Position numbers and translations under genes: made by a program
Assembly: GCF_004369205.1 (NCBI RefSeq)
Contig: NZ_QFGA01000003.1
Span: 310,001-374,000 of the forward strand
Length of the DNA: 64,000 nucleotides
Source of the DNA: Pelotomaculum schinkii
GTDB taxonomy: Bacteria > Bacillota > Desulfotomaculia > Desulfotomaculales > Pelotomaculaceae
Direction: 5' to 3'
Shown here: positions 325 through 57,262 of the stretch, in pieces
Position numbering within the stretch: position 1 is the first letter of the stretch
How the letters are laid out: every line of letters starts with the position of its first letter
Notes under the pieces: model-generated
Database searches by the model: none
What the model saw: the letters and a program-made list of their open reading frames with translations, nothing else
Told to the model about the DNA's origin: nothing

Positions 325-705
325 TCAGTCCTTGATACGTAATCTCAGGTCTTTAGATAGCCTCATGTCTATGGCGTAGATATGAAAAAACCACTCTCCA
401 ACCACAATTACCAGGGTCAGGATTGCCAGAGTCGATATAGGCAGCAAAAGCCCCGTAATGAGTCTGGTTAAACCCCAAATCAAGGGAATTGCCAGGGCTA
501 CGTCGACCAGCACGGTGATGTTGCGGCCCAACAACAGTAGAAAGGGACGGTCCGCGGCCAGGGATGTCACCAGGGTCAGAGTCAGGGCAATCACTGTTCC
601 CCAGATTACAGTAATACCGGTTACATAAGTCAGAATAGCGGTTACCGTTAAGGCAATGATTAGCTTTGCCAGAAAGGCCCGGGCATACAAGCTCAGATGC
701 GTCAC
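325..705 (-). CDS. Small integral membrane protein, DUF2512/YndM-like
   Basis: Hydrophobic protein of about 125 residues with four predicted membrane segments (near AKLIIALTVTAILTYVTG, VIALTLTLVTSLAA, VDVALAIPLIWGLTRL and ISTLAILTLVIVVGEWFF) and a short basic C-terminus ending LRLRIKD. Segment order and length resemble the DUF2512 (YndM-type) membrane proteins of Firmicutes, whose role is unknown. The family call is from memory of that pattern. The frame stays open to an ATG at 837, but the extra N-terminus is AT-rich and poorly protein-like. I place the start near the GTG at 705; a TTG at 690 is an alternative. It is transcribed divergently from the exporter operon. Confidence 0.6.
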   Translation of the reverse strand: MTHLSLYARAFLAKLIIALTVTAILTYVTGITVIWGTVIALTLTLVTSLAADRPFLLLLGRNITVLVDVALAIPLIWGLTRLITGLLLPISTLAILTLVIVVGEWFFHIYAIDMRLSKDLRLRIKD

Positions 706-785
706 CTCCAGCTTCAAAAATAGTATTTGGAGCAAGTAAAATTTTATCCACATCAACAAAATATTCATCGACTCTGAGGAAACCC

Positions 786-814
786 TTGACATTTTCTTTC
801 TTATGGTATATCTA
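786..814 (+). promoter_or_regulatory. Possible sigma-A promoter for the exporter operon
   Basis: TTGACA at 786-791, a 17-base spacer and TATCTA at 809-814, about 170 bases upstream of the membrane-fusion gene. It is a fair consensus match in an intergenic stretch. No operator is visible. Confidence 0.35.
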
Positions 815-987
815 TCGATTAGACGCGAAGGCGGCATATGTGAAAGATATTGATAGTGGAAGATAAAACTGCTGTTGCTCTTGTGTTGCAGGCAGACACG
901 GAGTATGCTGGTTACCGCCGGTTAAAAGCCATATTTCGCCTGTGTCCGACACGTGTTGTATGATGAAAACCAGGGAGGAAAGCCAGA

Positions 988-2523
988 GTGGAAAATATGC
1001 TCAATACCGAAGAAGGTAAATTAAGTCTTTTAAAAAAATTTTGTATGCCTCCGGCATTCTTTAAAAGAAAAAAACTGCTATATGGGACCTCAATAATTGT
1101 GGCGGTTGCATTGGCGGGATATTTTTTCCTGGGCAACTCAAAAAAAGCGTCGGGAGGCTATCTTACTGAAAATGTCAAAAAAGGCTCAATAACCAACACC
1201 ATCTCGGCAAGTGGTACGGTCGAACCGGTAAGCACGGTTTCTCTGGCCTTTAAAAATGCCGAAATCATAAAAAATATCTACGTCCAAGTGGGAGATCATG
1301 TAACACCCGGTCAGGTTTTGGCCGAACAGGACAGCCAAAACCTGGAGTTGCAGTTAAAACAGGCGGAAGCCAACTTGGATCAAGCCATCGCCAGTATGGA
1401 ACTGCTGCAAAATGGCTCCACCCAGGAGGAATTGCGGCAGTCCGAGGCAAGCGTAAAGATGGCCCAGGCGGCATATGACCAGGCCAAGTCCGACCTGGAG
1501 CGTTACCAGCAGCTGGCTGAGGCGGGAGCGGTTGCCCAAACCGACCTTGAAACCGCCAAAATAAGCTATGCCAATGCCGAGGGTAATTTAATCAAAGCAC
1601 AGGAATCTTACAAGGCCCTGCAATCAGGCGCCCGGGCAGAAGATATCAAATCGGCTGCAGCTAAACTGGCAAGTAGCCAGGCGTCGCTGCAAATTGCCAG
1701 TATCGATCTGGCAGGAGCCCGGATGGTAAGTCCCATTAATGGTATCGTTAGTGAGATCAACGGCGCCGTGGGGCAGCGGGCTACGGCCAACAACAACAGC
1801 ACCAGCGGGTCCAGCGGGTTTATGGTTGTGATCTCGGAAGCTTTGCAGATCAAGGCGCAGGTTAACGAAGCCGACATCGGCAAGACGGAAGTAGGCCAAA
1901 AGGTGGAATTTACCGTTAACTCTTTTCCGGAGCAAAACTTTACAGGCCGGGTCAGCAGTATATCTCCCCAGGCATACACCCTGTCCAACGTCCAAATTTA
2001 CGATGTAATCATCGAAATTGACGCTAACCAGCAGGGGTTAAAAGCAGGTATGCCTGCCAATGTAAACATTATCGTCGACAGGAGCGAAGACACGCTCACC
2101 GTTTCTAAGGGAGCCGTAACCTATGCCTTAAGTTACCTTAACAAACTGGGCCAGAGCGGGACGGCAAGCCCTGCGGCTACTGAAAGCGGGGCCGACAGCC
2201 AGGGCCGGAATAGCGAAAGAGCGAGCGGGAACGGTACAGGCGGCAACAGCAATAATAACCCAGGTGACACTGCAAGCCGGCTGGAAAGCAGCCAGACCCG
2301 GCAAGCCACGGTCCTGGTGATGGGCAAGTCGGGAACACCGGAGCCACGCAAGGTAACTCTGGGACTGTCGGACTTGAGAAATTATGAAGTTATAAATGGC
2401 CTGAACGAAGGGGAAACAGTTGTGATTGGCTCTCTCAGCCAGACTGCCGCTGCGCCTGCCCAGGGCGGCCAGGGCGGCGGCCCGACGCCGATGGGGGGCG
2501 GAGTAAGGGTACGAACTAATTAG
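988..2523 (+). CDS. macA: MacA/HlyD-type periplasmic adaptor (membrane fusion) protein
   Basis: Adaptor subunit of a MacAB-type ABC exporter, 511 residues. A single N-terminal membrane anchor lies at about residues 30-48 (LLYGTSIIVAVALAGYFFLG). It is followed by the first half of a lipoyl domain (SGTVEPVSTVSLAF...GDHVTPGQVL), a long alpha-helical hairpin (about 115-240, rich in QAEANLDQA-type heptads), the returning lipoyl half (VSPINGIVSEINGAVGQ) and a beta-barrel region. A Ser/Gly/Asn-rich low-complexity insert (about 385-440) interrupts the C-terminal membrane-proximal domain. The start is a GTG with ggagga eight bases upstream (974-979). It is the first gene of a three-gene operon, 16 bases before the ATPase. 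In a Gram-positive cell it would act outside the membrane as a lipid-anchored or TM-anchored adaptor. The substrate cannot be read from the sequence. Confidence 0.9.
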   Translation: MENMLNTEEGKLSLLKKFCMPPAFFKRKKLLYGTSIIVAVALAGYFFLGNSKKASGGYLTENVKKGSITNTISASGTVEPVSTVSLAFKNAEIIKNIYVQVGDHVTPGQVLAEQDSQNLELQLKQAEANLDQAIASMELLQNGSTQEELRQSEASVKMAQAAYDQAKSDLERYQQLAEAGAVAQTDLETAKISYANAEGNLIKAQESYKALQSGARAEDIKSAAAKLASSQASLQIASIDLAGARMVSPINGIVSEINGAVGQRATANNNSTSGSSGFMVVISEALQIKAQVNEADIGKTEVGQKVEFTVNSFPEQNFTGRVSSISPQAYTLSNVQIYDVIIEIDANQQGLKAGMPANVNIIVDRSEDTLTVSKGAVTYALSYLNKLGQSGTASPAATESGADSQGRNSERASGNGTGGNSNNNPGDTASRLESSQTRQATVLVMGKSGTPEPRKVTLGLSDLRNYEVINGLNEGETVVIGSLSQTAAAPAQGGQGGGPTPMGGGVRVRTN

Positions 2524-2539
2524 CGAACGGGGGCGCAGC

Positions 2540-3295
2540 ATGCCTGACACAACAACGATAGAACTTAAAGACATCAGAAAAACATACACCATGGGAGAAG
2601 CGCGCATTTACGCCTTAAGGGGTATAAACTTAACCATAAAGCAGGGAGAAATGGTTGCGGTCATGGGAGCCTCCGGTTCAGGCAAAAGTACATTTTTAAA
2701 TATTGTCGGCTGTTTGGACAAACCCACCAAAGGTACCTATTACCTCGACGGAGAGAATGTGTCCGAATTGGACAAGGACCAGCTGGCCACGATCCGCAAC
2801 AAAAGGCTTGGCTTTGTCTTTCAGGGTTTTAACCTTTTGGGCAGGGCGACAGTAGAAGCCAATGTAGAGTTGCCGATGATCTATGCCGGGGTGGAAAAGA
2901 AAGAGATGGCCGTCAGGGCTAAAGACGCCCTGCAATGGGTCGGGCTCTCAAAATATCTGCATCATTACCCCAACCAGATGTCAGGCGGCCAGCAGCAAAG
3001 AGTCGCCATCGCCCGCGCTCTGGTCAACAACCCTTCCCTGATCCTGGCCGATGAACCAACCGGCGCGCTGGATTCAAGGACCAGCATCGAGATCGTGGCG
3101 GTGATTCAAAGGCTTAACCAGGAAAAAGGGATAACGGTGGTGATGGTTACCCATGAAAAAGATATTGCGCAATATTGCAAACGGTTAGTGACTATCAAGG
3201 ACGGCCACGTTATTGAGGATACTCCGGTATTAAACCAAAGGAACGCCGACGAAGACCTGGCGGCCCTGCCGGTAGAAGCGGAGGCCGGGCTATGA
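2540..3295 (+). CDS. MacB-type ABC transporter ATPase
   Basis: Cytoplasmic ATPase of the exporter, 251 residues, LolD/MacB class. Visible motifs are Walker [10 protein letters not shown] (about 43-51), a Q-loop in VFQGFNLLG, signature MSGGQQQR, Walker [13 protein letters not shown] and the switch His in VMVTHEKD. Length is that of a stand-alone MacB ATPase; in Gram-negatives the same domain is fused to the permease. Its last four bases overlap the permease start (ATGA), so the two are translationally coupled. Confidence 0.93.
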
Positions 3296-30370: not shown

Positions 30371-30443
30371 TACTACCGCGATAGTCTTGACATGTGCAGA
30401 CTATCGCGGTAGTATTTAATTATGGGGAAACTATTGCAATAGT
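30371..30443 (+). promoter_or_regulatory. BlaI/MecI-type promoter-operator region
   Basis: A perfect 16-base inverted repeat (tactaccgcgatagtc at 30371-30386; its complement at 30399-30414) brackets TTGACA (30387-30392). The -10 TAGTAT (30410-30415) overlaps the second arm with a 17-base spacer. A further palindrome actattgcaatagt lies at 30430-30443. These three dyad sites fit autorepression by the BlaI protein encoded next. Confidence 0.85.
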
Positions 30444-30462
30444 CCACAAAGGAGATGTGCGC

Positions 30463-30822
30463 ATGGGAATAAAACTTTTCGATTCCGAACTAAAGGTGAT
30501 GGATGTCTTATGGAAGGGAGGACCTTTAACCGCCAAGCGGCTTACCGAAATCCTCAAAGAACAGGTGGGATGGAACAAGAACACCACCTACACTGTGATT
30601 AAAAAATGTATCGCCAAGGGGGCCATAGAACGGCTGGAACCCAATTTCTTGTGCCGGGCTGTCATCTCAAAAGAACAGGTGCAGGAACAGGAAACCACGG
30701 AACTGATCAACAAGGTATTTGACGGCTCTGCCGATTTACTTTTCGCTTCTCTTCTGAACACTAAAACCCTGTCTGTGGAAGAGATCGAAAGGCTGAAGCA
30801 GCTTGTCAATAATTTGAAATGA
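30463..30822 (+). CDS. blaI: BlaI/MecI/CopY-family repressor
   Basis: 119 residues. Winged helix with LFDSELKVMDVLWKGGPLTA, then RLTEILKEQVGWNKNTTYTV and IKKCIAKGAIERLEP, followed by a dimerisation helix tail (SLLNTKTLSVEEIERLKQL). Start ATG 30463 after ggagatg. It is paired with an M56 sensor-protease gene and preceded by dyad operators. Confidence 0.92.
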   Translation: MGIKLFDSELKVMDVLWKGGPLTAKRLTEILKEQVGWNKNTTYTVIKKCIAKGAIERLEPNFLCRAVISKEQVQEQETTELINKVFDGSADLLFASLLNTKTLSVEEIERLKQLVNNLK

Positions 30823-30832
30823 GGCGGCGAAT

Positions 30833-32290
30833 ATGGATATTTGGCAAATGAGCCTTTCTGGGGCTGTCCTCATTAGCGCCGTTGTTATCGTCCGTGCGCT
30901 TACCCTGCACAAACTGCCGAAAAAGACGTTTCTTGTTCTGTGGGGCGTAGTGATTTGCCGCTTGCTCATTCCCTTTTCCATTCCGTCGCGTTTCAGCTTT
31001 TACACGAGTATCGACATGCTGAAACGGGCAGTTACGGAAACGACGGCTTTCACTGCTCCTGTAAAAACGACGGGCATCCCCAATATGGGCGTTGCTCCCG
31101 ATCTGGAGCATACCATTGGGATTGGCGCGCCAGTCGTATCCGTTTTGCCCGTTACGGTCATTTGGCTGGCTGGCATGTGCGCCTGTGCCTTGTTTCTCAT
31201 CGTGGCCTATATCAAATGCCGCCGGGAATTTCAAACCGCCCTGCCAGTCACGAATAACTTTGCAGCCCATTGGCTGCGGGAACATCTGATGCGGCGGACT
31301 GTCCAGATAAAGCAATCCGATAAAATCAAAGCGCCGCTGACCTATGGGATCTTCCGACCCGTGGTGTTATTGCCCAAAACAACAGACTGGACGGACGAAA
31401 CAAGGCTGCGGCATATCCTTACCCATGAATTTGTGCATATCAAGCGGTTTGACGCGCTGACCAAGCTATTGCTGGCATCCGCTTTATGCATCCACTGGTT
31501 CAACCCTCTGGTGTGGCTAATGTATGTGCTGGCAAACCGTGACCTTGAGCTGTCCTGCGATGAAACCGTGGTGCAGACGTTCGGGGAAACCATGAAATCA
31601 GCTTACGCTATGACGCTCATCGGCCTGGAGGAAAGGAAGAACAGGCTACCCCCCTTGTGCAACAATTTCAGCCAAAACGTTATGGAAGAAAGGATTGTGT
31701 CGATTATGAAAATGAAGAAAACTTCCCTGATCGGAATGATACTGACCCTTGCTTTGATTATTGGCGTGCCCGCTGTATTTGCTACCTCTGCCAATACGGC
31801 AGGACAAACGGATGACCAGGACCCTTCCGTTCGTCGGCTTGTGCTCCTTAGAGCTGCTAATATAGATGACCAAACTGCCAGGGCCATGTCTGGTCAAGCC
31901 ACAATGTCAATATTTGATCAAGCAACTGGGAAAGACAGGATCAGCTGGGACGAAGGGAAAACTTGGATGACCGTGGAGTGGTATAGCTATGACGAATACA
32001 AAACATGGCTGGAACAGGAAAAGGAAAACCTGCAAGCGGTTGTAGATTACGAACAGTCTTTGACTGGCGAAAAGGGCCGGCCGGTCTCTGGCGACCGGTT
32101 TGTGTGGAACCAGGGATTAATGGATGAGGTCGTCCGTGAATACGAACGGGTTTTGCGGGATATTAAAAACGGGGCGCTGGTCACAAAGTCAATTGATGGG
32201 CGCGATGTTGATGCGAGCATGCTGGACGATGACGATGATGTTATGATGACATTTGCAATCGAAAACAGCGGTTTCAAACGCACCTGGTGA
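30833..32290 (+). CDS. BlaR1/MecR1-like M56 membrane metalloprotease
   Basis: 485 residues. Four TM helices (near 5-22, 35-55, 100-125, 285-305) enclose the M56 zinc protease with HEFVH (HExxH) in LTHEFVHIKRFDALTKL and the downstream ELSCDETV. The C-terminal extracellular part (about 310-485) is not the penicillin-binding sensor of BlaR1; it contains ISWDEGKTWMTVEWYSYDEY and an acidic DDDDD run. So it is a sensor-protease for an unknown envelope signal that would inactivate the BlaI protein. Confidence 0.88.
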   Translation: MDIWQMSLSGAVLISAVVIVRALTLHKLPKKTFLVLWGVVICRLLIPFSIPSRFSFYTSIDMLKRAVTETTAFTAPVKTTGIPNMGVAPDLEHTIGIGAPVVSVLPVTVIWLAGMCACALFLIVAYIKCRREFQTALPVTNNFAAHWLREHLMRRTVQIKQSDKIKAPLTYGIFRPVVLLPKTTDWTDETRLRHILTHEFVHIKRFDALTKLLLASALCIHWFNPLVWLMYVLANRDLELSCDETVVQTFGETMKSAYAMTLIGLEERKNRLPPLCNNFSQNVMEERIVSIMKMKKTSLIGMILTLALIIGVPAVFATSANTAGQTDDQDPSVRRLVLLRAANIDDQTARAMSGQATMSIFDQATGKDRISWDEGKTWMTVEWYSYDEYKTWLEQEKENLQAVVDYEQSLTGEKGRPVSGDRFVWNQGLMDEVVREYERVLRDIKNGALVTKSIDGRDVDASMLDDDDDVMMTFAIENSGFKRTW

Positions 32291-40270: not shown

Positions 40271-40313
40271 AGTTACCTACACACATCACACGTTAAGATA
40301 TATAAGCTCCTGC

Positions 40314-40346
40314 GCCCGATTGGTTTTTATCCAGTCGGGCTTTTTT
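40314..40346 (+). terminator. Terminator, and start of a segment repeated at 53.8 kb
   Basis: gcccga / tcgggc stem with a T-rich loop, then TTTTTT. The 110 bases from here closely match 53825-53940 in front of the Tn916-type sigma gene, so this may be a relic of another such element. Confidence 0.7.
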
Positions 40347-40555
40347 GCGTTTTCTGGAAAATTATTTTTCACTTTTTGCAGTTCACTTTGCCAAAATCGC
40401 TTTTTAGACCTGAGTAGAGAGGGGATATAAACCCCAGACATCAACTAGTTCATTTTGCAGTTGGATATTTTCCTTTCTTTGAATATCTACGATGCCACAA
40501 GAAACAGTATCCCGGTTTTCCGATGTTAATACCTGATAAAAAACTTGATGAGGAC

Positions 40556-41478
40556 CTATAAATTACTGGTATAAAAAACTGCTGAACGATAACCATAATC
40601 ATTATTATAAAGAGGCACTTCAAGTAATTTATATTTATTATTAGGGGTATTTAATGAAATACTAGTTAGTACAATTTTAGTTTCATTAGAATCTATGTAT
40701 GAAAGGAGAGCAAGGTTATTTTTGATATCATGTATGGAGACAACATGAAGGCTCTCGAAAAATGTTTCCCCCCAATAATTGGCTGTAAGATTATAAGAAA
40801 TATACTTATTATTCCGGGGAGAGCTTTTTGATTCAATACGTACACGTACAAGGAGTTGATTTTCCGTAATCCACCCTTCTGAGAATTGATCTTTACCAGA
40901 TTCTGCCTTAACTTCAGTCTTCTCTTTAGTTTTTAAATCGTATACTTCAACTCTGGCTCCCTCTGGGGTTGAAATAGTATATGAAATTTTGCTACTATCT
41001 TCATTCCAGTACGGTTTTCCAATAAGGTTTTCGGAGATTATAACTTTTTGATTCGAGGATAAATCCATATAAATTAGCTTATCATTACCAACTTTTGATT
41101 TGTAGTTAATTATTGTTAAAGCCATTTTATTCTTGTCCGGAGATAATGGGCATATCTAACATTTTGTGAGAGACAAATTGAAGAATTCCTTTCTAATATT
41201 ATTTGGTAAAGGTTTGAACTGGAGGAAGAATCTTTTTCTTTAGCTAGAACAAATACACTATCAGGCTCTATCATACCAACGATAGATTCAACTAGGATAT
41301 CACTATAAAGAGGAGAAAAATCATCCTTTGAAATTGCAATAATACCAAGATTATTGTTTTTTACGGCAAGGTATTGAGAATTAACCCAACTTTGTTTAGC
41401 CGAGCTCCCTAAATTAAATTGACAACCTGAACACAAAAAAAGGATAATGCTTAAAAATATAAAAATAGCTTTTTTCAT
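40556..41478 (-). pseudogene. Propeller-like lipoprotein, frameshifted
   Basis: The first part (41478-41116) has a lipoprotein signal KKAIFIFLSIILFLCSGC. The second frame (from about 41150 down to 40556) continues with PLSPDKNKMALTII, YWNEDSSKISYTIS and LSYIDSNETKIVLTSI, repeated strand motifs like TolB/WD40-type blades. The two frames overlap at about 41120-41160 and read as one protein if one base is added or removed there. No frameshift signal is obvious, so this is a mutation or an assembly error. Confidence 0.65.
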
Positions 41479-48714: not shown

Positions 48715-49413
48715 TTAACTCTTAAACTGTGGATAAAGCCGCTTTAATTTGGTTCTTGCATCATCGGTCGTGAATTGCCAGTCAACACCTTTTTGTTTTT
48801 TGTTTCTTGCAGTTTCCCATTCCAACAGTTCAAGGCGGAGGAAATTGATTGACGAAATTCGGCGTTCCAGACACTGTTTGGACATTACGCTCAGTTCGAT
48901 TTCGGCTATGTTAAGCCAGCTTCCATGCTTTGGCGTGTAATGGATCTCAAGGCGTTTAGCAAGGCTTCTGGAAACATCTGGCGGGAATGCTTCATAAAGT
49001 GATGCCATGGTATGAGTGTTCAGGTTATCCATCACCAGGCGGATCTTTTGTGCTTTTGGATAATGAACCTCAAGCAGTTCCCGGACCTGGTGTGCCCAGT
49101 CAACCCGAGTTCTTCTTTCACAGACCGTTACATGTCTCCAACCTGCCAATGGTTCTGTGAAGACAAAGATGCTGCAGGTTCCGTTGCGGACATACTCACC
49201 GTCTTGACACTCAGGCCTTCCGGCCTTCATCGGGATCGGGGTTCTGTTCTCACCAAGGAGCTGGTACGGCTTTTCGTCCATGCAGACGACCGGATATAGT
49301 CTGCAATATTGCTGCTGGTACAGCTCCAAAACATCTTCCATACAGGCGACGAAGGCGGCGTTCTGTTCAGGCGGAATACACCAACATTTACGGAGATGTG
49401 GGTTTAGTTCGTT
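48715..49413 (-). CDS. IS630 transposase, C-terminal DDE part
   Basis: Continues NELNPHLRKCWCIPPEQNAA and holds the DDE core: VVCMDEKPYQLLGE (Asp), LVMDNLNTHT (Asp) and NIAEIELSVMSKQCL (Glu). Joined to the N-part by a +1 shift in the A run; some IS630-family elements use programmed frameshifting, otherwise this copy is dead. Confidence 0.85.
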   Translation of the reverse strand, partial: NELNPHLRKCWCIPPEQNAAFVACMEDVLELYQQQYCRLYPVVCMDEKPYQLLGENRTPIPMKAGRPECQDGEYVRNGTCSIFVFTEPLAGWRHVTVCERRTRVDWAHQVRELLEVHYPKAQKIRLVMDNLNTHTMASLYEAFPPDVSRSLAKRLEIHYTPKHGSWLNIAEIELSVMSKQCLERRISSINFLRLELLEWETARNKKQKGVDWQFTTDDARTKLKRLYPQFKS

Positions 49414-49855
49414 TTTTTAAAAGCCGTCCAACGGCCACATAAGAGATGCTGTCAATGTACTGTAATTCAACCGCTTTATCCGCCAGCAGCCTTAGAGTCC
49501 ATCTGGATCGTCCCGACGGGGGTGAACTGCAGCTCAATGCGATGATCTTTGCTTCCACTTCACCGGTAATCTTCGGTTCAACGGGCGGCGTTTCGCGTTT
49601 CTTTCTGCCGAGCGCAGCCTGCAGCCCATGTTCCGAGTACCGACTTCGAATGGTATGAACGGTTTGCGGGTGAACATGAAACAACGCTGCTATTTCAACT
49701 TCGCTCTTTCGCCCGCCCGTGCCGTTCTCATCAGCTGCCAACAGAATATTGGCATGCATGATGGTTTTTGCCGGGGCGGAACCCCTGGAAACGATCTTGA
49801 GCAGGGTCTTCCGCTCCTCATCAGAAAGACGGACATGGTATCTTATTTTTGGCAA
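49388..49855 (-). CDS. IS630 transposase, N-terminal HTH part
   Basis: 155 codons: MPKIRYHVRLSDEERKTLLK, KSEVEIAALFHVHPQTVHTI, RSRYSEHGLQAALG, then WTLRLLADKAVELQYIDSIS and VGRLLKK. This is the two-HTH DNA-binding half. The frame changes in an A7 run at 49412-49418. Confidence 0.85.
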   Translation of the reverse strand: MPKIRYHVRLSDEERKTLLKIVSRGSAPAKTIMHANILLAADENGTGGRKSEVEIAALFHVHPQTVHTIRSRYSEHGLQAALGRKKRETPPVEPKITGEVEAKIIALSCSSPPSGRSRWTLRLLADKAVELQYIDSISYVAVGRLLKKRTKPTSP

Positions 49856-50003: not shown

Positions 50004-51965
50004 TCACCACTCCCAGGATAGCGCCTCGTCAAGTGTTTTCGGGACCTCTTGCATGACGATATCTTCCACCGCATTTTGAGCAACATTGTAGACTAAGTAA
50101 GCAACAATATGGTTGCCATTAATCGCAGGATAACAGGAAAGAAGCAGTTTTTTACCGTCCGGCGACCATTGGATGCGAGGACGAAGGTAGATTCCGCTGA
50201 CTTCTTGATCAAATATACCGCGTTCGTTGAACGCCGCCAGAACTGTCTTCGGGTTTACCAGCCTATAAAACTGATGGTTTTGGGAATCGTACAGATAAGC
50301 ACAATAGTCCCTTCCCGACTTTCCATCCAAAGTCTTCATATTGATAAACGCCCCGTAAACGCTGTCGGGTGACCAGCAGACCCGTCCGAATAAACCGCTT
50401 TCATCCAGAGTATAGATCCGGCCCTCATCGAAAACCCTTAAGCTTGCCGCCGCTTGTTTTGCCTCATCATACTCTATCTCGGCAACCTTTTTAGCATCAA
50501 AACTCGCATAGGCTTTTAAAGAATATTGGTCCCCTTGAGCGCAGGCCATCAGAAATCGTTCCAGTGATTCCGCCCGACAGGGAAAAAATATGTAATTTGA
50601 TCCACTGTGGCTGAGCGAGGCGGTATATCGATCAGGCAAGTTTTTTTCCTGGATATAGTGCAAATCAAAGCGCAAACCGTTATCCAGGGTGTAACGCCAT
50701 GCCGTATAGTGATAGGTCTCATCTTTTACCACTTCATCGGCCTTATAGCCGTTGATTATATCGCTAAAAGTTAATTCTCCATTTGCCAGCAGGCGCAGTG
50801 ACTCTATATCCAAGGTGCGTTGGCTACCGGCTTCGTTTAACATAGGGGAAGCACCTGCCTTATCGGACAAGGTTAGCCCCCCGTCACCCACCACTTGTAT
50901 GGTTGCTCCCTGGTTTTGCTGATCATCAGCCTTGGCGCTCGTTAAAGTCATCACGCCCAGTAAAATAACCAGCCCTGCGGCCAGAACCGAAATAGTCTTT
51001 AATGTCTTGGGGCGATTGATAATCATGCTAATTCTTGTCTTAATTCTGCTTTTCCCGTTTGCCATTGCTGTAGCCGTATTAAGAATGGCAACTTTCTTGT
51101 GACAGGCGTTAAACAAGATAAGGAGTGTATGACCATATTCAAGGCTTTCCTTTTCATCCAGGTAACGCAACACCCGGTCATCGCAGCTTAATTCGGAATC
51201 ATCGCGGGAAGCCAGAGCCGCCATCCATACCAGGGGATTAAACCAGTAAATAATACAACAAATATTCCGAAGCAGAGAGAAAAGATTGTCTTTCTGTTTG
51301 AAGTGGCAAAGCTCATGCAGCAATACATGTCTTAGTATTGTCCTGTCTGTTTTGGCCTCCGGCGTGATGGCAATGTAAGAGCGAAACAGGCCGACCAGGC
51401 AAGGGGAAGTCAAGTGATGGGAAATAACAACCGGCAATGGAGTTTTTATCCCGACCTGCCGGCATAGGTCACGGTAGAAGGGGATCTGGTCAAATGATAG
51501 CTCTATAGCCGACTGGCGCAACCTGCGTAGGAATACCCTGTTCAGGATTAGCATGTATACAAACACAGCCAAAGCACCGATTACCCATAAGATAAACAGC
51601 ATTTGGAACAAGTCGATTTTTTCTATATAACTAGTATTTTTTTCAGTTCTAACCTGTACCGCTGTGTTGCTTTGCGGCTCGGAATATGTCAGTGGCTCAA
51701 TAAAAGGAGAAGAAAATGTTTGCAGATCCGATCCATGGGTTTCAACCGTTGTAATAGGCGGAGGTTGGATAATGTTCATAACACTGAATGGGCTGGAGAT
51801 ATTCAACGGGATCAGAAGCCGTATGAGTACCAAAATCCAAACCGCATATTGCCAGGTGGGTCGTAGTTTTCCCCTAAACACCATGCGCAATACCAGCAGT
51901 ACGGCAATCAACAGGGATGAGGTCAAAGTAATTTGCAGTAAAAGGCGTAAAATATTCTCTATCAT
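50004..51965 (-). CDS. BlaR1-like M56 metalloprotease with propeller-like C-terminus
   Basis: 653 residues. The N-terminal membrane part has four TM helices (about 8-28, 37-55, 107-127, 310-330) and the zinc site HELCH in ILRHVLLHELCHFKQKDNLF with SELSCDDRVLRYL. The extracellular C-terminal half (about 340-653) is not penicillin-binding: it has WSPDSVYGAFINMK and WSPDGKKLLLSCYP, the blade signature of TolB/DPP-like beta-propellers. Last gene of an LCP-BlaI-M56 operon, overlapping blaI by four bases. The signal is presumably an envelope state. Confidence 0.88.
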   Translation of the reverse strand: MIENILRLLLQITLTSSLLIAVLLVLRMVFRGKLRPTWQYAVWILVLIRLLIPLNISSPFSVMNIIQPPPITTVETHGSDLQTFSSPFIEPLTYSEPQSNTAVQVRTEKNTSYIEKIDLFQMLFILWVIGALAVFVYMLILNRVFLRRLRQSAIELSFDQIPFYRDLCRQVGIKTPLPVVISHHLTSPCLVGLFRSYIAITPEAKTDRTILRHVLLHELCHFKQKDNLFSLLRNICCIIYWFNPLVWMAALASRDDSELSCDDRVLRYLDEKESLEYGHTLLILFNACHKKVAILNTATAMANGKSRIKTRISMIINRPKTLKTISVLAAGLVILLGVMTLTSAKADDQQNQGATIQVVGDGGLTLSDKAGASPMLNEAGSQRTLDIESLRLLANGELTFSDIINGYKADEVVKDETYHYTAWRYTLDNGLRFDLHYIQEKNLPDRYTASLSHSGSNYIFFPCRAESLERFLMACAQGDQYSLKAYASFDAKKVAEIEYDEAKQAAASLRVFDEGRIYTLDESGLFGRVCWSPDSVYGAFINMKTLDGKSGRDYCAYLYDSQNHQFYRLVNPKTVLAAFNERGIFDQEVSGIYLRPRIQWSPDGKKLLLSCYPAINGNHIVAYLVYNVAQNAVEDIVMQEVPKTLDEALSWEW

Positions 51966-52357
51966 ACTTGGCCGCCTTCCTTTGATTGTTTTGCTTCTTG
52001 AAGTGCTTTCATCAGTTCATCGATTTCTTCCTCGTCCAACTGCTCATTTTTTATCATGGTGGATACCATCAGGCCCAAGTTTCCGTTCCACAGTTTTCCT
52101 ACAAAAGAACGGGTTTCCCCGGTCACGGCTTCATTGTAGTCCAGCAAAGGATAATAAAGCTGCGGATTGGCATCCTCCCTTCGCAATGCGTCCTTGGCTT
52201 CCATGCGCTTGAGAAAGGAAAAGATGTCATGTCTGGTCCAGCCGGTTTCCTCCTTAAGCGCATCTTCAATTTGGCGGCAGGAAAGGGGTGAGCTTTCCCA
52301 AAGGAGCCTCATAATCTTCCATTCCGCGTCTGAAAGGGTAACCTTCTTGCTTATCAT
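51962..52357 (-). CDS. BlaI/MecI-family repressor
   Basis: 131 residues. Winged helix: VTLSDAEWKIMRLLWESSPL, SCRQIEDALKEETGWTRHDI, FSFLKRMEAKDALRREDAN; dimer tail NEQLDEEEIDELMKALQEA. It lies between the LCP gene (four bases upstream) and the M56 gene (ATGA overlap). The usual cleavage point for an M56 partner is in the tail region. Confidence 0.9.
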   Translation of the reverse strand: MISKKVTLSDAEWKIMRLLWESSPLSCRQIEDALKEETGWTRHDIFSFLKRMEAKDALRREDANPQLYYPLLDYNEAVTGETRSFVGKLWNGNLGLMVSTMIKNEQLDEEEIDELMKALQEAKQSKEGGQV

Positions 52358-52361
52358 GACC

Positions 52362-53402
52362 TCAGTCCTCCATTCTTATAATCTTTATATCTTCCTTGGT
52401 AATGGCACGGATATAGGGATTAATTGTCCGGTTTACCAAGCTGATTACCTCTTTTGCCGACAGATATACATAATTATGTCCTTGGTAGTCCCCAAAACTG
52501 CTGTAAGGCAGGGTTTGCACCGTAAAATCTTTTTCCGGGTCAAGCTGCATAACCTGGCGGGCGAACCATTGCATATCTCGCAGCGACAAATCGGTTTCCA
52601 CATGCTGTTGAAAGATATCGGCAAATTCAGGAATTTTAGAAATGTTGGAACCGGTTAACAATTCATCAACCAAGGCCATAAGAAAATGCTGTTGTATTTC
52701 TATACGGCCTATGTCGGCGTTTATGTAATTCCTGTATCTCACCAACTGCAAAGCCTTGTTCCCATCCAAAATTTGCAAGCCCTTTTTAAGATGAATGTGC
52801 AAGTCCTGGGCCGGGTCATCCCAATTCATGTCTTGGGGAACAGAGAATTTCACTCCCCCTATGGCATCGACCAACTCTTTAAAAGCTTCAAGGTCTACCA
52901 CAATATAGTAATGGGGTGAAAAACCCAATATGGATTTAATTTCTTCTTTTAATTGCTCCACGCCACCAACAGCATAGGCATCATTGATCTTTTTGGGATT
53001 TCGCGGCACATCCACCTGCGTGTCTCTTGGCACTGAGACAATATTGATCTTATGGCCGACAGTATCCAAGGAAACAACCATAATGGTGTCAGTGTGATAG
53101 CCGTCTTTGTCAGTTCCTATCACCAGAAATGTATAAAAGCCATCCTTGTAACCTTTGTCTGGCATAACCGGCCCGTCTCCGTTCTCCAAACTGGTCATAC
53201 CATAGCCTTGGTTAAGTCCCGGTGGACGGTTGAAGTACGTCCCTATAACAAAACCAAGTGTAAAAAAAATTGCCAGTACAGATAAACCTATTATTAACAA
53301 CAAGCGCAACTTCTTCCTGAATGAGCGATCTGGGAGATGGGGTGCGTTATGATTTTCCGAAGCTAAAACTGTTTTATTGCTAGAATGACCGAATCGACTC
53401 AT
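52362..53402 (-). CDS. LytR-CpsA-Psr (LCP) family cell-wall ligase
   Basis: 346 residues. Cytoplasmic basic N-terminus, TM helix LRLLLIIGLSVLAIFFTLGF (about 32-51), extracellular LCP domain with FLVIGTDKDGYHTDTIMVVS, INIVSVPRDTQVDVP, KKINDAYAVGG, then the Arg/Asp-rich LQLVRYRNYINADIGRIEIQ. LCP enzymes attach teichoic acids and other glycopolymers to peptidoglycan. Start ATG after aaagga. Head of the operon with BlaI and the M56 protease. Confidence 0.93.
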   Translation of the reverse strand: MSRFGHSSNKTVLASENHNAPHLPDRSFRKKLRLLLIIGLSVLAIFFTLGFVIGTYFNRPPGLNQGYGMTSLENGDGPVMPDKGYKDGFYTFLVIGTDKDGYHTDTIMVVSLDTVGHKINIVSVPRDTQVDVPRNPKKINDAYAVGGVEQLKEEIKSILGFSPHYYIVVDLEAFKELVDAIGGVKFSVPQDMNWDDPAQDLHIHLKKGLQILDGNKALQLVRYRNYINADIGRIEIQQHFLMALVDELLTGSNISKIPEFADIFQQHVETDLSLRDMQWFARQVMQLDPEKDFTVQTLPYSSFGDYQGHNYVYLSAKEVISLVNRTINPYIRAITKEDIKIIRMED

Positions 53403-53481
53403 GATAATAATCCTTTCAAATCAAATAAATGCAGATAATCAGCGTTTTTTGATTCTTTGTTATAAAAAATACACGCTCCAT

Positions 53482-53525
53482 GGAGTAAAATAGCAGTAGG
53501 CAGATGCCTACTGCTATTTTACTCC
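53482..53525. repeat. 44-base perfect palindrome upstream of the LCP operon
   Basis: Two 21-base arms (beginning ggagtaaaatagcag and ending ctgctattttactcc) separated by ga. It lies 80 bases before the LCP start. It could be a terminator of something lost, a strong cruciform, or the operator of the operon's BlaI protein. Confidence 0.85.
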
Positions 53526-53982
53526 TCTGTTTCCGTTTCTGTCAATGAATTTTGTAAGATGCAATAATAGTTTGTCGATGACAGGTACTGCCTATAGATA
53601 AAAGAAAAATCAACGCCGCCGTTTTCCTTTTCAAAAAATAGGATAGTGGAGGGTGTATTAAGTTTTAGAATGCGGCGGTATCAGGAGGTTGCCGCCGTGT
53701 TAAATCTGCATCGACATTATTCACCATTATGTGACCAATTAAAAAAAGCCTAAAGTGTATATGGAATAATTACAGCCTGCTGTGTGCTCACACACATTAC
53801 ACAATAGGAAATATATTCCTTTATGCTCGATTGGTTTTTATCCAGCCGGGCTTTTTTGCGTTTTATGGCAAATTATTTTTCGCATTTTGCCGTCTGCTTT
53901 GCCAAAATTTGGTTACCTGCCGTAGTAGTGGCGAAAGGGGAAGCAATCACCCGCCTTTGCGGACGCGAAGGGAGGTGAGAAC
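53526..53982. other. Gap before the Tn916-type tail
   Basis: No gene. Holds a hairpin ggcggta...ttgccgcc near 53672-53697, a terminator (gctcg...cgggc then TTTTTT, 53825-53857), and the segment 53825-53940 that is repeated at 40314-40425. The gaagcaatcacccgcc stretch before 53983 is the usual leader of this ICE sigma gene. Confidence 0.5.
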
Positions 53983-54408
53983 ATGAAGCCTCATTCCCAC
54001 GAAGAACACAAGCGGCACACCTTTGACAGCTTTTGCAAAAAGATACTCAAGCATGAAGCCCGCGACTATTACGACGAGTTGAAAAGACGCAGAAAACATG
54101 AAATATCTTTGGACGAGCTGTCCGAAAAGGATTGGGAGCAGTTGGCCGTCATGGACGAGTATTTCAAGGATACATACAGCTTTCGCGTGTTGGGCCACGA
54201 CATCACCGTGTCAGATGAACGCATAGGCGAAGCTCTGAAAGTCTTGCCAACGAACAAGCGCGACATTATCCTGCTGTCTTATTTCCTTGACATGACGGAC
54301 AGGGAAATCGGGGAACTCTTGAACCTTGTCCGGCGTACCGTTGCCTATCGTCGGACAAGCACTTTGCGGGAATTAAAAAAATTCATGGAGGGAAAAGCGG
54401 ATGAATAG
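53983..54408 (+). CDS. Tn916-type sigma-70-like regulator
   Basis: 141 residues: HTFDSFCKKILKHEARDYYD, ELKRRRKHEISLDELSEKD, then region-4-like VLPTNKRDIILLSYFLDMTD, REIGELLNLVRRTVAYRRTS. Corresponds to the small sigma factor upstream of the HTH gene, xis and int in Tn916-like elements. Start after gggaggt. Overlaps the next gene by eight bases. Confidence 0.9.
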   Translation: MKPHSHEEHKRHTFDSFCKKILKHEARDYYDELKRRRKHEISLDELSEKDWEQLAVMDEYFKDTYSFRVLGHDITVSDERIGEALKVLPTNKRDIILLSYFLDMTDREIGELLNLVRRTVAYRRTSTLRELKKFMEGKADE

Positions 54409-55206: not shown

Positions 55207-55428
55207 TTGCTGAAAAGCAATGAAGCATATAAGCTGATTTTTCAGGAATACCCGGATGTGGTCAATGTGGAGCAAATGTGTGAAATGCTTGGCGGTATCA
55301 GCACAAAAACCGCATACCGCCTTTTGCGGCAAAATCAGATTAAGCATTTCAAAATAGGGAGAACGTATAAAATCCCCAAGCTCCATATTTTTGAATACCT
55401 GGCGGTCGTGCAGGAATCCGATGCGTAA
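55207..55428 (+). CDS. Excisionase-like HTH protein (Xis)
   Basis: 73 residues, TTG start with aaggag eight bases upstream. MerR-like excisionase fold: YPDVVNVEQMCEMLGGISTK, TAYRLLRQNQIKHFKIGRTY, KIPKLHIFEYL. Adjacent to the integrase, as in Tn916-type elements. Confidence 0.88.
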   Translation: MLKSNEAYKLIFQEYPDVVNVEQMCEMLGGISTKTAYRLLRQNQIKHFKIGRTYKIPKLHIFEYLAVVQESDA

Positions 55429-55530: not shown

Positions 55531-57006
55531 ATGGTAACAGGACACCTGCGAGAAAAAAATGGCTATTTCCAGATGATCCTCACCTATAAGGATATGAACG
55601 GAAAGCGCCAAACCAAGTCTGTCAGCACGGGACTTCCCGTCAAGGGGAATAAAAAGCGCGCCGAAGCGCTGCTTTGGAAAACCAGGCAAGAGTTTAATCC
55701 CGACACGGGAATGAGTGACAAAAACGCTTTGTTTGCCGACTTCCTAAAAAAATGGCTGCAGGAGGTTATCAACAGAGTGGACGCCGACACCTACGCCCTC
55801 TATGCGTACGATGCCAAAACCTTCATCATCCCTTACTTTAAGGATACCGCCGTTACGGTGGTGAAAATAAAGCCGGGGGACATCGAAGGCTACTATCAGT
55901 ACGAGAGAACAGAAAAAAACGCTTTAAACACCGCCCTGCTCCAATATCACGAGGTCATCAAGGAAGCCTTGGCCTATGCCGTGGAGCTTGAATTAATTAG
56001 GGATAATCCGGCCGACAAGGTAAACCCGATTTCCGGCGAGGTGCGGATGCTGTTTACCGACTTCCTGCTGGAATGGCTGGAGATGATCAAGCACAATGTG
56101 GAAATGACCACCTACGCCTCTTACGCTGTTTGCATCAAGAGCTGTATTATTCCTTACTTTGAGGGCTTCAAGCTTACGTTGAAAGATGTAACGCCGAAGC
56201 ACATCCAGGACTATTATCAGTACGAGCTGAACGAGAAAGGCTTAAGCGCCTGCACGGTGATCCACCGCCATGCCAACATTCGCAAGGCATTGCAGTACGC
56301 TTTCAAGGTGGGCCTGATCGCCTTTAACCCCGCCGACCGGATTGAGCGGCCCAAACCCGGGAAATTCGTAGCCAGTATTTATGATTCCAACGAATTGGAA
56401 GCCTTGTTCGCCGTCGTGAAAAACAAGCCGATAGAGCTGGCCGTTATCTTGGGCGCGTTTTACGGACTGCGCCGCAGTGAAATCGTCGGGCTGAAATGGG
56501 ACGCGATTGACTTTGGAAAAAAGACGCTGACCATCAAGCACACCGTAACCGAGGTAAGGGTGGACGGAAAAGCCATCATCGTGGAAAAGGACCGGACCAA
56601 AACCAAGTCCAGCCACCGTACCCTGCCGCTGGTAGAGCCCTTTGAAAAGCTTCTCCGGCGGCTGAAGGAAGAGCAGGAGCGCAATCAAAAAGTATGTGGA
56701 AAAACCTATTGCCGTGAGTATATCGGCTACATCTACGTGAACGAGTTGGGAGAACGGATCAAGCCGGGCTATATCACCCAGAATTTCGCGCTCACGCTGA
56801 AAAACCACGGCCTCAAAAAAATCCGCTTTCACGACCTGCGCCATAGCTGCGCCAGTTTGTTGTACGCCAACGGAGTCAGTCTGAAAGAGATCCAGGAGTG
56901 GCTGGGGCACAGTGATATTTCCACCACCTCGAACATCTACACCCACCTGGATTTCAGTTCCAAGGTCGCTTCGGCCAACGCCATCATCGGCATATATCCC
57001 TCCTGA
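55531..57006 (+). CDS. int: Tyrosine recombinase (Tn916-type integrase) with duplicated core-binding domain
   Basis: 491 residues, start after aaggaggc. N-terminal arm-binding domain (GHLREKNGYFQMILTYKDMN). Then two successive core-binding domains: about 70-170 (LFADFLKKWLQEVINRVDAD, FIIPYFKD, GYYQYERTEKNAL, DNPADK) and about 175-280 (LFTDFLLEWLEMIKHNVEMT, IIPYFEGF, DYYQYELNEKGLS, FNPADR). Catalytic domain with GLRRSEIVGLKWDAIDF (Arg), HDLRHSCASLL (HxxR) and WLGHSDISTTSNIYTH (His...Tyr). Usual length is about 380-410 residues; the extra 100 is the duplication. It ends 170 bases from the 3' end of a tRNA-Leu gene. Confidence 0.95.
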   Translation: MVTGHLREKNGYFQMILTYKDMNGKRQTKSVSTGLPVKGNKKRAEALLWKTRQEFNPDTGMSDKNALFADFLKKWLQEVINRVDADTYALYAYDAKTFIIPYFKDTAVTVVKIKPGDIEGYYQYERTEKNALNTALLQYHEVIKEALAYAVELELIRDNPADKVNPISGEVRMLFTDFLLEWLEMIKHNVEMTTYASYAVCIKSCIIPYFEGFKLTLKDVTPKHIQDYYQYELNEKGLSACTVIHRHANIRKALQYAFKVGLIAFNPADRIERPKPGKFVASIYDSNELEALFAVVKNKPIELAVILGAFYGLRRSEIVGLKWDAIDFGKKTLTIKHTVTEVRVDGKAIIVEKDRTKTKSSHRTLPLVEPFEKLLRRLKEEQERNQKVCGKTYCREYIGYIYVNELGERIKPGYITQNFALTLKNHGLKKIRFHDLRHSCASLLYANGVSLKEIQEWLGHSDISTTSNIYTHLDFSSKVASANAIIGIYPS

Positions 57007-57176: not shown

Positions 57177-57262
57177 TGGTGCCGATGGCCGGAGTCGAAC
57201 CGGCATGGAGGTTATCCAACGGTTTTTGAGACCGCCGCGTCTGCCAATTCCGCCACATCGGC
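57177..57262 (-). tRNA. tRNA-Leu, anticodon CAA
   Basis: 86 bases on the minus strand with CCA encoded. Acceptor gccgatg / catcggc, discriminator A; D arm gcg...cgc with ggc loop; anticodon loop ctCAAaa; long variable arm (ggataacctcc), T arm gccgg ttcgact ccggc. The 3' end faces the integrase gene, so it is the likely attachment site of the element. Confidence 0.95.

Follow-up and report, generated by a model that had tools for sequence, protein, structure and literature searches.

The window (the whole stretch of DNA analysed, 64,000 nucleotides of Pelotomaculum schinkii) carries three contiguous genes on its minus strand. They encode, in order of reading, a 346-aa LCP protein (53402..52362; PF03816, 135 bits), a 131-aa BlaI-family repressor (52357..51962; PF03965, 83 bits) and a 653-aa M56 protease (51965..50004; PF05569 over aa 9-315, 181 bits). 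The LCP stop codon lies 4 bp from the BlaI ATG, and the BlaI stop and M56 start share the four bases of ATGA. ORF coordinates and Pfam matches thus agree with a preliminary description of the locus, which had reported these genes as 4 bp apart or overlapping. Its proposal that they are expressed together is supported by the gene order, the spacing and a single strong promoter. The operator-like palindrome and the mobile-element setting given below are additions to it.

Related loci are designated L027 (Desulfotomaculum gibsoniae copy, in genome G022), L023 (Syntrophomonas BM5_bin.8), L022 (Syntrophomonas UBA4911) and L034 (genome G447). G022 matches the published genome of D. gibsoniae (PMC4148979).

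The sole promoter of the region matching 11 of 12 consensus positions, TTGACA-18-TAAAAT, is located at 53545-53516 (minus strand). Its -10 box lies inside a perfect inverted repeat of 44 bp (53482..53525; 21-bp arms, 2-bp centre) with the core AGTAGGC-N4-GCCTACT, which is the putative BlaI operator. The centre of the dyad is found exactly 36 bp past TTGACA in the window, L027, L023 and L034. In L023, two positions are altered symmetrically in both arms (GC to CG), and symmetry is kept. The palindrome occurs once in the host genome; a conserved dyad on this promoter and nowhere else supports the earlier suggestion that the operon is self-regulated. The predicted start site lies about 7 nt past the -10 box, i.e. 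about 5 nt before the dyad centre; the mRNA would therefore include one arm only, which argues for a DNA operator rather than an RNA hairpin.

The repressor matches MecI/BlaI structures (MecI, 1sd6: 2.6e-12), and its recognition helix (WTRHDIFSFLKRM) is divergent. This helix reads W-x3-T in all 32 other BlaI sequences that could be aligned and WTRHD (Thr to Asp) in the BlaI of the window, L023 and L034, a change specific to this clade. The site TAC-N4-GTA was sought within 120 bp upstream of 33 other BlaI genes and was found at 23 of these promoters (1.3 expected in shuffled sequences), in agreement with the published operator consensus of the CopY/BlaI family, TACANNTGTA (PMC7253601). No such site was found at the promoters of the window clade, and a classical BlaI box at the window promoter was rejected on this ground. 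Recognition helix and operator have diverged together in this clade; the relation is a correlation. Beyond the close relatives, the next BlaI is 46% identical (about 600 genomes).

The M56 protein aligns with the cryo-EM structure of BlaR1 (8exs: 9.4e-9 over aa 8-325). Its zinc motif HELCH (H217-E218-H221) and a distal E258 are invariant in four homologues. The HExxH site with distal Glu, the homology to BlaR1 and the adjoining BlaI gene are the traits of a BlaR1/BlaI-type pair. The last membrane helix, read from the sequence, spans about aa 325-342, which places aa 345-653 outside the cell. No penicillin-binding domain was found by Pfam in this part, and the NCBIfam model blaR1_generic reaches 164.9 bits (cut-off 400) over aa 13-349 only; the protein is thus BlaR1-like, not a BlaR1. 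Matching by eye of the residues predicted for cleavage, in BlaI and in the loop of M56, gave an ambiguous result and is kept out of the argument.

The C-terminal sensor domain (aa 383-653; 50007..50819, minus strand) carries WSPDS/WSPDGK motifs at about aa 531 and 600 and scores 22.3 bits on the Pfam 6-bladed propeller DUF5128, just below the cut-off of 22.9. AlphaFold (AF2), run twice on an alignment of three sequences, returned predominantly beta structures with modest confidence (pLDDT 62 and 63), which did not rise when the sensor was trimmed before folding. In Foldseek, nearly all of the best hits to these models are propellers (TolB, WD40 and cd1; E 2e-6 to 1e-4), with TM-scores of only 0.2-0.4, which indicates that the propeller ring is poorly modelled. 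The sensor is best read, with moderate support from these models, as propeller-like. Of the earlier reading, a beta-propeller instead of a penicillin-binding domain, the second half holds and the first is supported short of proof. Elsewhere in the window (40556-41478), two adjacent ORFs look like pieces of one TolB-like propeller lipoprotein separated by a frameshift; they have no Pfam match.

BlaI/M56 pairs are common, and nearly all work on them concerns beta-lactam resistance. Besides this operon, the host genome contains four intact BlaI-M56 pairs and one BlaI interrupted by a stop (window 30394-32290; L008, L009, L010), each locus with its own type of promoter repeat. The similarity of M56 to other loci stops before the sensor. 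Given these other pairs and this limit of similarity, the statement that such pairs normally control beta-lactamase or PBP2a was too strong.

LCP enzymes make phosphodiester links to peptidoglycan. The LCP protein of the operon scores 129 bits on TIGR00350 (cut-off 62), and its nearest relatives of solved structure (phmmer) are MsrR (6uex, 1.6e-30) and TagV (6uf3, 1.4e-26). It has the features of an LCP ligase: the PF03816 domain, one N-terminal transmembrane helix (about aa 32-54) and the catalytic residues R126, R222/R224, D230, R233 and Q237, matched by eye against PMC7831098. The motifs HTDTI, PRDT, KINDAYA, VRYR and ADIGRIEIQQ are present. Between the window and L022, dN/dS is 0.17 for LCP, 0.30 for BlaI and 0.21 for M56; the window LCP is thus under purifying selection. 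Two other LCP loci, one intact and one with a stop, are found in the host genome, and LCP homologues in 264 of 300 genomes, which makes the operon LCP an extra, dedicated copy. Only the window and L023 have a BlaI near LCP among the 30 best LCP loci of these 300 genomes, and only the same two have LCP next to BlaI among the BlaI loci examined. No report of an LCP under BlaI/M56 control was found in the open-access library searched.

Searches with the sensor and BlaI covered about 600 genomes; of these, G022, G447 and the two from Syntrophomonas alone yielded close relatives. The window and G022 share 99.06% DNA identity over 3,512 bp (window 50385-53896); the operon in the two Syntrophomonas MAGs is 84-90% identical. 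A strain-unique gene order produced by IS shuffling is rejected, as the order LCP-BlaI-M56 recurs in other families (D. gibsoniae and Syntrophomonas). None of 24 further genomes from the host's family, two of which belong to the same genus, carries the operon; this absence and the 99.06% match in another family show recent horizontal transfer. Carriage by viruses was rejected, since searching viral contigs with BlaI turned up no relative. Carriage by plasmids was rejected as well: only distant M56/BlaI matches were found (identity of at most 40%), none covering 80% of M56.

The relatives differ in gene content. In D. gibsoniae, LCP (99.7%) and BlaI are intact and the M56 match ends after aa 527 (L027:9964), followed by DUF3848-like and NikA/MobC-type genes; the circuit there may thus be uninducible. 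M56 identity between the window and this copy dips to 90% in nt 1321-1440. In L023, an internal deletion breaks LCP; BlaI, M56 and the operator are kept. L034 has the operator, a BlaI (69%) and a full-length M56 (53%) and no LCP; its divergent neighbour encodes a phosphodiester glycosidase (NAGPA, PF09992) whose start lies 52 bp from the dyad. Of the operon's parts, LCP is the least firmly kept: the most distant relative has none, and one MAG has a broken copy. Between L022 and L023, the identity of the M56 genes is about 77-91% over the first 1,200 nt and 100% over the other 762 nt, which indicates that Syntrophomonas lineages have exchanged the sensor-coding end by recombination (identical third: L022:2256-3008 and L023:7201-7953). 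A complete Wadjet (JetABCD) anti-plasmid system (L034:10566-17268) is found beside the LCP-less BlaI-M56 pair, and a RecQ/DpdF-like helicase at 605-3082 of the same locus.

The operon sits in the cargo slot of an integrative element associated with tRNA-Leu, next to its sigma/xis/int end. On the plus strand, this end includes a small sigma-70 region-4 ORF (53983..54408; PF08281), an excisionase-like HTH_17 protein (55207..55428; PF12728) and a tyrosine integrase (55531..57006; PF00589, 100.8 bits); a tRNA-Leu (CAA) gene on the minus strand (57177..57262) is the probable attachment gene. Near the D. gibsoniae copy, too, a remnant of this tRNA/int end is present. The slot holds other cargo elsewhere: a non-coding end of about 293 bp (53600..53893) recurs in family loci next to sigma ORFs with different cargo (L104, L105). 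In sister genomes, this sequence lies upstream of sigma-like ORFs with other cargo, or alone after transporter genes; a partial copy is present in the window at 40279-40382. No conjugation genes were recognised nearby by eye, and no second att copy was found within the window; the element may be degraded or may extend further. An IS630-type transposase lies just downstream of the operon (48715-49855), with fragmentary ParA/ParB nearby.

The reading preferred here, to which we give a probability of roughly two in three, is that the operon is a mobile, self-regulated BlaI/M56 circuit with the LCP ligase as its output. BlaI dimers on the 44-bp palindrome would cover the -10 box and the start site and so silence the single promoter of LCP, BlaI and M56. 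An envelope signal would trigger the extracytoplasmic propeller-like sensor of M56, whose cytoplasmic zinc protease would then cut BlaI and open the promoter. Induced LCP would attach more glycopolymer to peptidoglycan, and newly made BlaI would reset the circuit. Binding of BlaI to the dyad, its cleavage by M56 and the role of LCP as output are proposed from sequence. Cleavage and binding have counterparts in other species: BlaR1 of Staphylococcus aureus cleaves BlaI directly (PMC9834060), and in Clostridium thermocellum the operons of BlaIs carry inverted repeats to which these repressors bind (PMC8457756).

LCP may instead be a passenger, as it is absent in L034 and broken in L023 while BlaI, M56 and the operator are kept. 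It would then have landed between the operator and blaI; the functional unit would be BlaI-M56 and its real target would lie elsewhere, e.g. the divergent NAGPA gene of L034, which starts close to the dyad. The two other LCP loci of the host also fit this explanation. It is judged unlikely: LCP is intact in D. gibsoniae, it is under purifying selection against L022, only 4 bp separate it from BlaI, and no second dyad is present in the host genome as an alternative target. Another explanation is that the operon is cargo in decay on an integrative element that is itself degraded, and that the circuit does not work in the host. The IS630-type transposase and the ParA/ParB fragments, the truncation of M56 in D. 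gibsoniae, the deletion in the LCP of L023 and the absence of the operon from the 24 family genomes are consistent with it; the intactness of the three window ORFs, the promoter and the palindrome and a dN/dS of about 0.2 across orthologues make it improbable.

Instead of an operator, the palindrome could also be a repeat element or form a hairpin in RNA, as an attenuator or a terminator, given that its stem is perfect and that the L034 copy is followed by T6, as in a terminator. This was rejected on the position of the predicted start site, inside the palindrome, and on the single occurrence of the sequence in the genome. The distance of 36 bp from the -35 box is fixed in diverged loci, the L034 palindrome lies between divergent genes (a poor place for a terminator), and the Rfam matches are sub-threshold, spurious miRNA hairpins; the probability left to a hairpin or repeat is very small.

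With LCP in the window operon and NAGPA beside the L034 copy of its regulator, there is a hint of a common theme of wall polymers. The earlier idea that the sensor reads the state of the wall or of a glycopolymer gained no support and is a conjecture. A broader and tentative extension, more doubtful than the circuit itself, is an inducible wall-modification switch borne by a mobile element. An M56/BlaI pair that senses through a propeller and uses an operator code of its own would turn on LCP, and so alter the glycopolymers coating syntrophic and sulfate-reducing bacteria, in response to an outside agent (an antibiotic, a phage, a competing element or a shortage of polymer); recombination between lineages would swap the sensor half. 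The locus joins one BlaI/M56 pair, as proposed, to a cell-wall polymer ligase, a non-antibiotic sensor and a matched change in repressor helix and operator, and it has clearly moved between genera in recent times. How a BlaI/M56 switch acquires a new target and a new tuning can be tested on it, and it gives a way into the study of wall regulation in syntrophic anaerobes.

Several known systems resemble parts of this locus. Like TagT/U/V, MsrR and LcpA, the operon LCP has a transmembrane anchor and a catalytic LCP domain with conserved Arg/Asp; unlike it, none of 28 other LCP loci checked adjoins BlaI/M56. Tn916/Tn1549-like elements likewise have a sigma-like ORF, xis and a tyrosine integrase next to a cargo slot, and features of this type (DUF3848, sub-threshold; NikA/MobC) lie beside the D. 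gibsoniae copy. The window differs from them in that no conjugation module is recognised beside the operon and in that the cargo is a wall-enzyme operon. CopY/BlaI-family operators share with it a dyad on the repressor's own promoter; they differ from the window core, from its arms with TAAAAT and in the recognition-helix Thr, which is Asp here. The BlaI_1845 operon of C. thermocellum (PMC8457756) is also a self-regulated BlaI-BlaR1 system, with a reported peptidoglycan-synthesis-like gene; it has no LCP, and its operator is a GACTAT repeat. The closest parallels in design, BlaR1-BlaI and MecR1-MecI of staphylococci and Bacillus, likewise combine a BlaI-type repressor, an adjacent M56 membrane protease with an HExxH zinc site, an extracytoplasmic C-terminal sensor and autoregulation. 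In the window, the sensor is not penicillin-binding and is probably propeller-like, the proposed output is LCP and not beta-lactamase or PBP2a, the operator is not TAC-N4-GTA, and the divergon is replaced by a co-directional three-gene operon headed by the target. Because a penicillin sensor and a TAC-N4-GTA operator were both looked for and neither was found, the window circuit most likely works, by analogy, like BlaR1-BlaI, yet strictly speaking it does not count as a BlaR1 system.
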